DNA from: Thermococcus aggregans
GTDB taxonomy: Archaea > Methanobacteriota_B > Thermococci > Thermococcales > Thermococcaceae
Assembly (NCBI RefSeq): GCF_024022995.1
Contig: NZ_CP099582.1
Span: 806,001 to 870,000, forward strand
Direction of reading: 5' to 3'
DNA length: 64,000 bases
The notes beneath the pieces were generated by a model. It saw only the letters and a program-made list of their open reading frames with translations. It was not told the origin of the DNA and ran no database searches. Position numbers and translations under genes: made by a program. Below, one piece after another: positions 6,285 through 10,236 of the stretch (within the stretch, counting starts at the first letter, position 1; every line of letters starts with the position of its first letter).

Positions 6285-8312
6285 ATGAAGAAAGTTTTAG
6301 CTCTCGCTCTTTTTTTGCTCTTAACTATCTCCAACTTTGCAGTAGGGCAAATACTAATAGAAAATCCCCAACCATCTCTTGTGATCCTTGGAAATCCCTA
6401 TCTGAAGTACTTTTCACTACCTGAAGGAGAAGAATACACAGCGTATTTTTATGTGATCGAAGATTTGGACATTGAGAATGTTACACTCTATTACAGAGTA
6501 AATTACGGTGAATGGCAAACAAGACCTACAAAAGTCGCCAATATAAATGAAAACGAAGAAATATACAACTCAATAGTAAGCAGAATATACAACAGATCTG
6601 CAATAATGAGAACGTTTTATGGAAAAGCAACTATCCCCGCCCAAGAAGCGGGAAGTGTCGTGGAATTTAAAGTAGTGGTAAAAGACAAAGAAGGCCACAT
6701 AAGTGAAAGCATTATAGGGAAGTACTTTGTTGTAAATCCCTCAGGAAAGCGCGTGCTAATTGTTGATCCCTCAGTAAAAGAGGAACTCTATCTAGAGGGA
6801 GCTGAGAATGTAGAAGTGCTTATCAATGCAACGGAAGAGTATCCGGTGGATCTAAGCGACTATCAAGCAAAGCTCGACAAGGTAAAGCCTTTCCTCAAGC
6901 ATCAAAGGTTTCTAAAGCGACACCACTGGGAATACCTTGCTCGGTATTACAACATTACAATTGTAACCCCAGAAGAGCTCCCAACTGCCCTTAAAGAGGT
7001 TCAACCTAGCGTTGTGATACTCTCGAATCTATGGATGAAAAGGTGGGAAATCCCAAACATCCAAATTCTAATCGAATATCTCCGAAAAAACAATGCAGGG
7101 CTAATCGCAACTCACGGAACACTGTTTGATGGATTAGTCTACACTGGAGACAGGCTAATCCAGACGGGACCAGCTCCCCATATAGGGACATTCGAGGCTT
7201 ATGAACAAGGAAGTCTAGCAACGTTGCTTGGCCTTGAGCTCTTGCCGGTAATAGAGGAAACTAAAATAAAAGCCGCAGAAAAGGAGAATTATGCAATCTC
7301 CGAAATACCAGCAATGCTGCCATTTATCCCCTCTCCAGAACCTCTTCTTGTTAAAAACATGAACGTTATAAAGAGCGTATCGTCCTTGAACTTTTCTAAT
7401 GAGACTTATTCTGCCTTTGGTTGGCAGTACCTCTTACTTCAAGAAAGCATGAAATTTGCGAGAGAAAGAATAAGAGAAAGGAAAAGAATAGAGAAGGGCA
7501 AGATACTGGAGTTCTTTGAACTCCAAAAGGAGATATTTGGCTACTCAAATCCCTCACGGGGAATATACGCAATGGACTTTCCATTGGTCGATGCCCTAAG
7601 AGCTTTAAAGTTCACAGACGACGAGATATGGGTTCAAATCGGAGCTACTATTATAACTCTGACACCCAACCGTCCAGTACTAGAAAGAGTCCGTCTGCTG
7701 AGCGCAATAAACCAAGATATTGTTAGTATAGATGCCATCTCAAAAGATTATCTTTCTACCATTATAACAAGAGGTGAGAAACATCGTGAAGATGGAATAA
7801 GGAGTGTCTACATTTCATTTGAGATCGAGGCTGGAGAAGAGCAGGAATTTTTAGTACTGAAAGACATGGCGGAATGGGCATCGAACTTTGAGCCAATAGA
7901 AACTTTTGCGCCAATTGTTCAAGTAGCAGTGTTATCAAACGATATCGATTGGAATATAAAGGGACAATACATCAAGGAGCACTTTGAAAAGCTGGGAGCT
8001 ATGGTTACAAGGGTTAAGCCAAGTGAATTTGAAGCGTACAAGAAGAACAACATCATAATAATCCTCGGAGGTCCTAAGGCATACGAAGGAGTTGGCGAGT
8101 ACGTAAAGCAGGTTCTAGACGAAGAGGAGCAGAAAAAGATAATCAACGGAAAACAGGGCATTTTCATAAAGAGAGACGTGTGGAGCAAAGGGCAGATAGT
8201 TATAGTACTGGCTGGAAAGGACAGATATCAAACTGGAGAGAAGGTATTAACATATTCGAAAGGAGTAAACGAGGACTACGTAAACCTCCTTGCAGAATTT
8301 CTAACAAGCTGA
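6285..8312 (+). CDS. Large secreted protein with GATase-like and S-layer-associated-like regions, function unknown
   Basis: I do not recognise a named family for this 675-residue protein. A signal peptide is clear (residues 1-21, positively charged start then a hydrophobic core). Residues about 40-150 resemble a beta-sandwich (NVTLYYRVNYGEWQ). Residues about 160-330 look like an alpha/beta fold of the ThuA/class I glutamine-amidotransferase type (VLIVDPS, VVILSNLWM, GLIATHGTLFDGL). The last 110 residues (IIIILGGPKAYEGVGEYV, then IVIVLAGKDRYQTGEKVL) resemble domains found in Thermococcales S-layer and other surface proteins. A central Lys/Arg/Glu-rich helix (about 385-410) is probably exposed. 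It is divergent from the importer operon. An extracytoplasmic role is inferred; the activity is unknown. Confidence 0.8.
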   Translation: MKKVLALALFLLLTISNFAVGQILIENPQPSLVILGNPYLKYFSLPEGEEYTAYFYVIEDLDIENVTLYYRVNYGEWQTRPTKVANINENEEIYNSIVSRIYNRSAIMRTFYGKATIPAQEAGSVVEFKVVVKDKEGHISESIIGKYFVVNPSGKRVLIVDPSVKEELYLEGAENVEVLINATEEYPVDLSDYQAKLDKVKPFLKHQRFLKRHHWEYLARYYNITIVTPEELPTALKEVQPSVVILSNLWMKRWEIPNIQILIEYLRKNNAGLIATHGTLFDGLVYTGDRLIQTGPAPHIGTFEAYEQGSLATLLGLELLPVIEETKIKAAEKENYAISEIPAMLPFIPSPEPLLVKNMNVIKSVSSLNFSNETYSAFGWQYLLLQESMKFARERIRERKRIEKGKILEFFELQKEIFGYSNPSRGIYAMDFPLVDALRALKFTDDEIWVQIGATIITLTPNRPVLERVRLLSAINQDIVSIDAISKDYLSTIITRGEKHREDGIRSVYISFEIEAGEEQEFLVLKDMAEWASNFEPIETFAPIVQVAVLSNDIDWNIKGQYIKEHFEKLGAMVTRVKPSEFEAYKKNNIIIILGGPKAYEGVGEYVKQVLDEEEQKKIINGKQGIFIKRDVWSKGQIVIVLAGKDRYQTGEKVLTYSKGVNEDYVNLLAEFLTS

Positions 8313-8409
8313 GATAAATTCTGGTAGCTTTAATTTTTCTTTATTTTTAACAATAACGCAACCTCCGAGACGAATAAGAATTTTTTCAACGCCCTTAAAG
8401 TTGTTATTT

Positions 8410-8916
8410 TCAAGGAATCTCTGCAGGCAAATGTCTCGAAATGAGGTAATACCAAATCACAAGTATAGCTGCCATAGCAAATGTATACCTAATGCTTAAC
8501 TCGTTAGTGAGCTTGTTTACAGATATCGCGTAAAAATCCAAAATATATCCCATAATCACTACATAAAGTGCTATGCGCTCAATCCTCTGTAAGTTTCTGA
8601 GTGGAGCTATGTTAAGATAGGCATATATCTGGGGAATCAATATAGGAAAAATAAGTGCTATTTCTATCCATTGATGAGTTGACTCAACGTCTCTAAAGAT
8701 TCCAGCTTCCCAAATATATTGAAAAATTTGTGCAAATGCCAAATTCAAGCCAATGTATATCATAAATAAAAGCATAAACGAGTACCTCACGAACTCTTTG
8801 GACGGATTTTCTGGCTTATTGGGATGTTTCTCCACTATATATAACACTTGGTTATTAACAACGAGAAGGATTCCATATACACTAATAGCCGCCAAACCTG
8901 TTGAGACGTCAGGCAC
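8410..8916 (-). CDS. Small multi-pass membrane protein, second gene of nuclease cassette
   Basis: A 168-residue hydrophobic protein with four or possibly five predicted membrane spans (about residues 8-25, 44-66, 84-105, 116-132 and 143-158) and no recognised family. It starts with GTG at 8916, preceded by AGGGGGTC nine bases upstream. Only 14 bases separate it from the end of the nuclease gene, so the two form an operon. Its function is unknown. The pairing of a membrane protein with a nuclease-fold protein next to a tRNA gene is the type of arrangement seen in conflict systems, but nothing in this protein itself proves that. Confidence 0.72.
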   Translation of the reverse strand: MPDVSTGLAAISVYGILLVVNNQVLYIVEKHPNKPENPSKEFVRYSFMLLFMIYIGLNLAFAQIFQYIWEAGIFRDVESTHQWIEIALIFPILIPQIYAYLNIAPLRNLQRIERIALYVVIMGYILDFYAISVNKLTNELSIRYTFAMAAILVIWYYLISRHLPAEIP

Positions 8917-8930
8917 TAATTAGACCCCCT

Positions 8931-9950
8931 TTAACGGATGATAATCTTCTTCCGAGCATCTTTGATGATAATTTCCCTTGAACGGCCTTTTCGTTTAATG
9001 TCTCCCTCTAACACCACAACCTCTGCTCCAAGCCGACGAAGTTTCTGGATGTAGCTATCGATGTCCACATTGGCTCCAACATCAAGAATCACCGCAATAA
9101 CCTCGTCAAAGTATTCGACATAATCTAAAACCTGGCCAACCAACCGCTGAAGCTTGCTCCTGCTCTCTGCAATCTTTATCTCAATACCAATCCTGTCACC
9201 AATAGCAATGTCAATTTTTTGGTCTCCAACTGGATACTGACGGACAACGTGCCTCCCAAGGCGCGCCTTGAGATACTGGTAAAGTTGCTTTTCAAGGTCC
9301 TCCTCGTCTCTCACTATCTCTGGCTCAAAATCAAAGAGAATATCAACAACATCTGGCTGGGAACCAATCTCTTCATCGTACTCTTCTATATCTTCCTTGC
9401 CCTCAAGGGATTCCAAAGTTTCAGATTCAAGCTCAATAGAAGCAACTTTGCCAGATTCCTCACCGAAAAGTTGGGCCCTGTATTCGTCAAGCTCTCTTTG
9501 CTTCTGCTCTTTGAAGGCTTTTAAAGCCTCATTGGCTTCCTCAAGCCACTTGTGAAAATGCTGAAGTACGTGCCGAGACTTAATTTTATACCTTTTAGCA
9601 ACCTCTGCAACTTCCTCCAGAGTCAAATGAGCTGCCACGACATCAATCAGCTCATCTTTATTTCTAATTTTGTAACGGCGCTCTTCACCGTTCACAATTT
9701 GTGTCCGATAGGTAGGGACACCCTTGGCGGCACACACAGCCTCAAGCTGCCTCATCTTGAGCTGTGATAAAATCTCTCGCTTAGCCTCAAACTCCTTTCG
9801 TGCAACTTCCTCTTGGAACTTTTTCTCTGCATCAGCGATTTCTCTTTTGATTTCAAGAGCCTTAGCCCGATACTTGGCCTCCCTCGCCGCGCGGTCCATT
9901 GCTTTTTTAGTCGCGTCTCCAACTTTCTTTAAGAAGTCACCAAACCCCAT
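8931..9950 (-). CDS. Coiled-coil protein with C-terminal PD-(D/E)XK nuclease-like domain
   Basis: A 339-residue soluble protein, counted from the ATG at 9950, which has GGTGAT five bases upstream. Residues 15-65 are charged coiled-coil. Residues about 62-135 form a compact helical region with a possible SAP-like and helix-turn-helix character (LTLEEVAEVAKRYKIKSRHV). Residues 140-200 are an acidic linker. The C-terminus has the layout of a PD-(D/E)XK nuclease: Glu220 in a helix, D247 in QKIDIAI, E257-x-K259 in GIEIKIAE, and QxxxY at Q273-Y277. All active-site positions are intact, so DNA or RNA cleavage is plausible. It resembles restriction-type stand-alone nucleases rather than a known housekeeping enzyme; the exact family is not recognised. 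Confidence 0.78.
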   Translation of the reverse strand: MGFGDFLKKVGDATKKAMDRAAREAKYRAKALEIKREIADAEKKFQEEVARKEFEAKREILSQLKMRQLEAVCAAKGVPTYRTQIVNGEERRYKIRNKDELIDVVAAHLTLEEVAEVAKRYKIKSRHVLQHFHKWLEEANEALKAFKEQKQRELDEYRAQLFGEESGKVASIELESETLESLEGKEDIEEYDEEIGSQPDVVDILFDFEPEIVRDEEDLEKQLYQYLKARLGRHVVRQYPVGDQKIDIAIGDRIGIEIKIAESRSKLQRLVGQVLDYVEYFDEVIAVILDVGANVDIDSYIQKLRRLGAEVVVLEGDIKRKGRSREIIIKDARKKIIIR

Positions 9951-10158
9951 AAGCATCACCATTTATTCTTATGTTAAGAATTACTCAAAGAAATTAAAAG
10001 AGTTATGGATGTCTCCTTATGAAGGTAAATGGAGGAATATAAAACGAACATTATTTTCTCCATAATGATAAATACATTGCCTGTTGAAGCAGACTCTGTG
10101 AAGAATAAGCCCTTCACAATGGTAAAACTAATCTTAGAATAGCATGACAAGAGAATTA

Positions 10159-10236
10159 TGGTGCCCCGGCCGGGATTTGAACCCGGGGCGCGGGCTCGAA
10201 AGGCCCGCATGTTTGACCGGGCTACACCACCGGGGC
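10159..10236 (-). tRNA. tRNA-Glu (UUC anticodon)
   Basis: On the minus strand the acceptor arms GCCCCGG and CCGGGGC pair and are followed by discriminator A and an encoded CCA. The anticodon arm is CGGGC-CTTTCGA-GCCCG, with anticodon TTC reading Glu codons. The T-arm GGGTTCAAATCCC is intact and no intron is seen. It borders the nuclease/membrane-protein cassette. Confidence 0.96.

Follow-up and report, generated by a model that had tools for sequence, protein, structure and literature searches.

Integrative plasmids of the pT26-2 family have been described in the Thermococcales, together with their type I integrases, their 3'-tRNA att sites and the use of tRNA-Glu by TKV2 (PMC6972569). A 2019 survey of the family left the majority of variable-region genes without an assignment and raised the question of why integrated copies persist. 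Among antiphage systems, SNIPE, Kiwa and Zorya have in common that a DNA-acting protein owes its specificity to its location at the membrane (PMC12904381). Here we analyse a gene pair of Thermococcus aggregans in the light of both groups.

The window is the whole stretch of DNA that was analysed, 64,000 nucleotides of contig NZ_CP099582.1 (positions 806,001 to 870,000). On its minus strand a nuclease gene and a membrane-protein gene lie codirectionally between a host gene for a 675-residue protein (6285-8312) and tRNA-Glu(TTC) (Table 1). The earlier note on this DNA had read both open reading frames, the 14-base spacing and the neighbouring tRNA-Glu from the letters, and all were found present. 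It had also recognised no named system; indeed, neither protein has a PADLOC match, and neither matches anything at curated cut-off in Pfam or NCBIfam. The 675-residue neighbour, signal-like at its N-terminus, matches S_layer_C weakly (E 0.019) and occurs in only 7 of 13 congeners, with varying identity.

Table 1. Features of the nuclease locus (window coordinates)
Feature	Position	Strand	Basis
PD-(D/E)XK nuclease gene, 343 aa (339 aa if start 9950)	8931..9962	-	ORF, AlphaFold core, fold search, invariant residues, PHROG_28707
PD-(D/E)XK core, residues 220-319	9006..9305	-	model secondary structure and conservation
SAP-like putative DNA-binding module, residues 70-124	9591..9755	-	modelled helices and conservation
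4-5-span membrane protein, 168 aa, operon gene 2	8410..8916	-	ORF, hydrophobic spans, SD motif, homologue in G038/G044/G084 element
Upstream region shared with element-borne copies, TATA-like CTTTTAATTT	9963..10020	-	blastn match, alignment
tRNA-Glu(TTC), integration target	10159..10236	-	ARAGORN
44-bp att, tRNA positions 35-78, identical at ends of nuclease-bearing plasmids elsewhere	10159..10202	-	
Inserted stretch, missing from 11 congeners	about 8345..10155		empty-site alignment and synteny; boundaries approximate

The nuclease is not a universal housekeeping gene, a reading that we considered and rejected: it occurs in 26 of 94 Thermococcales genomes, where some copies are partial or decayed, whereas Trm5, whose gene adjoins tRNA-Glu, is present in all 94. 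Nor is it conserved at one locus. In G074, G076, G080, G081 and G083 the 675-residue gene runs directly into tRNA-Glu and Trm5, and in G075, G077, G078, G079, G082 and G084 synteny shows tRNA-Glu directly facing an ABC permease gene; the site in G085, the twelfth congener, allowed no judgement. Because the same tRNA-Glu site is empty in 11 of the 12 congeners, we regard the pair as a foreign insert. Such patchy presence fits the reading in the earlier note. No homologue of the nuclease was found outside the Thermococcales among 115 genomes of the same phylum, and neither the nuclease nor the subfamily of its L055 homologue has a match in IMG/VR, INPHARED phages or PLSDB plasmids. Decayed copies were also seen: one in G027 (L050:9445-10468) lies directly 3' of tRNA-Glu with GNAT-like and t26-19-like genes, and others are in G045 (L054:9593-9979), G075 (C1:1415206-1415957) and G085. 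The window's own genome holds a distant relative (L064:10001-10735, G000:C1:1268001-1268735), at about 30-37% over the core, which lies about 1.4 kb from tRNA-Ala; no pT26-2 genes were found near it.

In other Thermococcales, close homologues of the nuclease are carried by integrative plasmids of the pT26-2 family, 22-24 kb in size. These carriers contain 14-22 homologues of pT26-2 genes in pT26-2 order (t26-1 integrase, -4, -5, -6, -7, -8, -10, -11, -13, -14 ATPase, -15). Core genes and a type I integrase are present in G038, G042, G039 and G041, and att sites were located in the first three. The 22.2-kb G038:C4 has at both ends a 44-bp sequence identical to positions 35-78 of the window tRNA-Glu, and the elements of G042 (446295-468304) and G039 (442777-467104) are bounded on one side by an intact tRNA-Glu and on the other by this att (44-45 bp). 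The window tRNA-Glu equals the attB of such pT26-2-family elements, though the window holds a single att copy. Moreover, relative to the tRNA or att, the nuclease gene is oriented alike in G038, G042, G039, G027 and the window.

Phylogeny also points to transfer. In the nuclease tree the window sequence groups with four sequences from another genus (support 99/97) and the congener G083 falls outside. The blastn match between the window and the element-borne copies extends about 50 bp upstream of the nuclease gene. The nuclease is 88% identical, against 73-77% for Trm5, a contrast that counts as support only, since synonymous sites are saturated; it is the tree and the empty sites that carry the argument. 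The window's genome has no match for the pT26-2 ATPase, integrase or regulator, and the inserted stretch contains none of seven pT26-2 core genes. Because the host lacks the ATPase and integrase, the pair is most probably cargo that has outlasted its element. That it is a plasmid remnant is a strong conclusion short of proof, because the window contains no second att copy or integrase fragment. In sum, the sequence comparisons leave little doubt that an integrative plasmid of the pT26-2 family, with tRNA-Glu as its attB, left the pair behind as accessory cargo. The tRNA-adjacent position described earlier stands and is explained by this tRNA-Glu being the site where plasmids with the same nuclease integrate; the pair reads as cargo rather than as a module native to the host. 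A similar solitary nuclease lies at tRNA-Arg in G014, with an Int(N) remnant.

Over 4.7-5.0 kb, one nuclease-bearing element does not differ by a single letter between G038:C4 (L041), G044:C2 (L039) and G084:C9 (L040), which belong to two genera. Such identity could stem from a very recent transfer or from contamination between samples. In the G084 chromosome the tRNA-Glu site is empty.

From its first ATG the nuclease reading frame encodes 343 residues; the start at 9950 (339 residues), where a GGTGAT ribosome-binding-like motif is found, appears the better one. The AlphaFold model, made with 19 homologues, has a mean pLDDT of 80.7, with the core mostly above 88. A long N-terminal helix (residues 8-65) leads into a SAP-like helix-hairpin-helix-helix module (70-124), and a second long helix (130-172) and a disordered acidic linker (about 173-204) precede the core (220-319). 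Within the core, a helix (220-238), three strands (239-245, 248-254, 258-264), a helix (268-281) and a fourth strand (287-294) follow the alpha-beta-beta-beta-alpha-beta order of the PD-(D/E)XK superfamily. The PD-(D/E)XK core that had been read from the letters was also found by fold search: Foldseek matches in the PDB include SfsA, Card1, FANCM-FAAP24 and EcoT38I, all of this superfamily, at probabilities of 0.8-1.0, with no match at E <1e-3. A sequence search for relatives of solved structure returned nothing but coiled-coil noise.

Four residues, E220, D251, E261 and K263, are invariant in the 19 nuclease homologues (E216, D247, E257 and K259 in the 339-residue numbering). The active site proposed in the earlier note thus survives in its fold and in D247, E257 and K259. 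Its E220 does not: this residue is E224 of the longer form and varies, and the helix glutamate is likely E216. Nor is its QxxxY motif universal, being missing from distant homologues. The SAP-like region holds as a likeness, with a modelled helix, beta hairpin and two helices (pLDDT about 88-95) that are conserved among homologues; the Pfam SAP model gave no match to the nuclease at E <=1, and the likeness is one of motif spacing and modelled helices only. Compared with G038, the nuclease has a dN of 0.07 and a dS that is saturated or about 1.8, giving an omega of about 0.04-0.05 where dS can be estimated. By these estimates the gene is under strong purifying selection and is not a chance reading frame. 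Taken with the model, the first gene very probably encodes an active PD-(D/E)XK fold of DNase type.

The second gene begins at a GTG preceded by AGGGGGT, a strong SD motif. Its product has 4-5 hydrophobic spans by Kyte-Doolittle analysis, confirming the four-to-five-span protein reported before, and its AlphaFold model is poor (pLDDT 51). It was found in 4 of 94 Thermococcales genomes, and the pair is known from two independent loci, the window and the one element common to G038, G044 and G084. In that element a homologue with 42% identity likewise follows the nuclease. At some 15 further nuclease loci the gene that follows bears no relation to the window membrane protein, encoding instead a DUF4145 protein (PD-T7-4-like, E 2e-7), a CoiA-type nuclease, a DUF3800 protein, a 2-TM coiled-coil protein or an unknown product. 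The conserved unit, as gene neighbourhoods indicate, is the nuclease, and the downstream gene is exchangeable; the earlier idea of the pair as a conserved module was not borne out. Moreover, the partner evolves much more rapidly than the nuclease does (dN 0.50, compared with 0.07), and because of this the pairing is possibly loose. Functional coupling of the two proteins is, on balance, somewhat doubtful. A link to the membrane is nonetheless suggested in several places. The window nuclease has no TM helix and its N-terminus is amphipathic (muH 0.62), the homologues of G052 and G014 (L051:10983-11990, L052:9578-10555) have an N-terminal TM helix of their own in place of that N-terminus, and a membrane protein comes next in the two independent loci.

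In the elements, t26-20-like and t26-15-like genes flank a variable slot that holds the nuclease gene, transcribed against the core genes. In 18 other ATPase-bearing stretches the interval from t26-15/16 to t26-20 often holds opposite-strand genes. Slot tenants in other elements include a DUF4145/PD-T7-4-like protein (E 1e-8), an Mrr-type nuclease (Mrr_cat_2, above the Pfam cut-off) and t26-19 membrane proteins. Counting genes after the nuclease as well, a tally of this slot and that position alone gives a candidate defence-like set of PD-T7-4 (E 1e-8, 2e-7), HEPN/DUF4145, CoiA-type nuclease and Mrr_cat_2 matches. In G024 and G006 the slot carries two genes: the first encodes a DUF6731-like protein of about 340 aa, which scores just under the Pfam cut-off, and the second a 4-TM protein (about 145 aa) that matches PADLOC RexB weakly (E 0.001). 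This two-gene set (L173:8259-9757 in G024, L180:12142-13614 in G006, L187:1392-2923 in G067) has the layout of the window pair and is not homologous to it. Its sequences make it a candidate archaeal RexAB-like pair; the G067 copy lies beside tRNA-Glu, on the 5' side. We tentatively propose that pT26-2-family plasmids might possess a dedicated slot for interchangeable undescribed defence modules, with the nuclease family among its main tenants and acting as a membrane-tethered DNase against competitor DNA in hyperthermophilic archaea; tethering would be through its own TM helix or through a partner protein.

Our best reading as a whole, which we hold at even confidence, is that the nuclease is an accessory anti-competitor DNase that would work near the membrane. 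There the nuclease would cleave DNA that belongs to rival plasmids or to viruses, giving superinfection exclusion or defence to the element and hence to its host. Its SAP-like part would bind DNA, its N-terminal helix is predicted to be amphipathic, and the membrane protein might dock the nuclease at the membrane or signal membrane disturbance. In favour of a function of this kind we count the invariant catalytic residues, the predicted fold, the purifying selection and the slot with its defence-like tenants; against it we count the lack of a PADLOC match and the many nuclease loci, most of them, that have no membrane partner. An anti-mobile-element role of the nuclease, taken by itself, is evenly balanced. 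For the pair, a defence role is plausible and would probably apply.

Nucleases of mobile elements can also serve replication or recombination. The main alternative to an anti-competitor DNase, possible at well below even confidence, is that the enzyme works in the DNA metabolism of the element itself (replication, resolution or processing for transfer), the window copy being a passive remnant. PD-(D/E)XK nucleases of HJR type linked to plasmid-like integrated archaeal elements are indeed known (PMC4158269), the gene travels with elements, and some chromosomal copies (G027, G045, G085, G075) have decayed. However, pT26-2 lacks the nuclease, as do the remaining plasmid records that were searched and most elements with the ATPase, and therefore it is not a core gene; it lies in the variable slot and is read against the core genes; and it has stayed whole and conserved both in the window and in G014, where no core genes accompany it.

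Rather unlikely, in our view, is the abortive or sensing module put forward in the earlier note, with the membrane protein as sensor or effector and the pair acting as one functional unit. Both independent loci do have an operon, with a 14-bp gap or a 4-bp overlap, and the gene order would by analogy recall known membrane/DNA-acting defence pairs. However, those are the only two independent pairs, set against the unrelated next genes elsewhere, and a relationship of the membrane protein to RexB was tried and rejected: it has no match to PADLOC RexB and is not similar to the RexB-like 4TM cargo protein (probability 0.3 by hhalign). Selfish addiction, with a toxic restriction- or toxin-like nuclease and the divergent MazE/AbrB-like regulator (t26-20 type) upstream of it in many elements as antidote, is very improbable, as the window's genome has no such regulator and the nuclease is nonetheless intact, and t26-20-like genes recur elsewhere in the elements and look like transcription regulators.

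To return to the anti-competitor DNase, a conserved nuclease beside defence-like slot tenants suggests that these plasmids may earn their keep by shutting out other invaders. For a genetic test, T. kodakarensis, from which TKV2 comes, is a possible host.

How does the locus compare with known families and systems? Its carriers resemble the pT26-2 family (pT26-2, pGE2, TKV2/TKV3; PMC6972569) in integrase, ATPase (t26-14), t26-5/6/7/11/13/15 and 3'-tRNA att. By contrast, pT26-2 itself lacks this nuclease, and the window has only the two cargo genes and no core gene. The nuclease is homologous to the virus/prophage family PHROG_28707 ('nuclease'), which its residues 155-343 match at E 2.8e-31 and which the L055 homologue, itself more distant, fits more closely (4e-96); the window subfamily differs in an extra N-terminal helix, a coiled-coil insert and exchangeable partners. 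This subfamily with its exchangeable partners is undescribed in the sources searched. The sce7726 family and MTES_1575, also PD-(D/E)XK, match weakly and within the nuclease core alone (E 5e-4 and 9e-3), far below curated cut-offs, and the window nuclease is not a member. Of RexAB, the membrane protein does not show the RexB-like 4TM component. Kiwa (KwaA membrane protein and DNA-binding KwaB; PMC12904381) has a two-gene layout like that of the window pair, but KwaB binds DNA without cutting it and the pair has no PADLOC match to KwaA or KwaB. SNIPE, a membrane-bound anti-phage nuclease (PMC12904381), would be alike if the window nuclease is held at the membrane near DNA entry; SNIPE, however, joins DUF4041, nuclease and anchor in one protein, whereas the window has no DUF4041 (Pfam), keeps its membrane part separate and shows no homology. 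By analogy, the pair may work like SNIPE and Kiwa while being homologous to neither.
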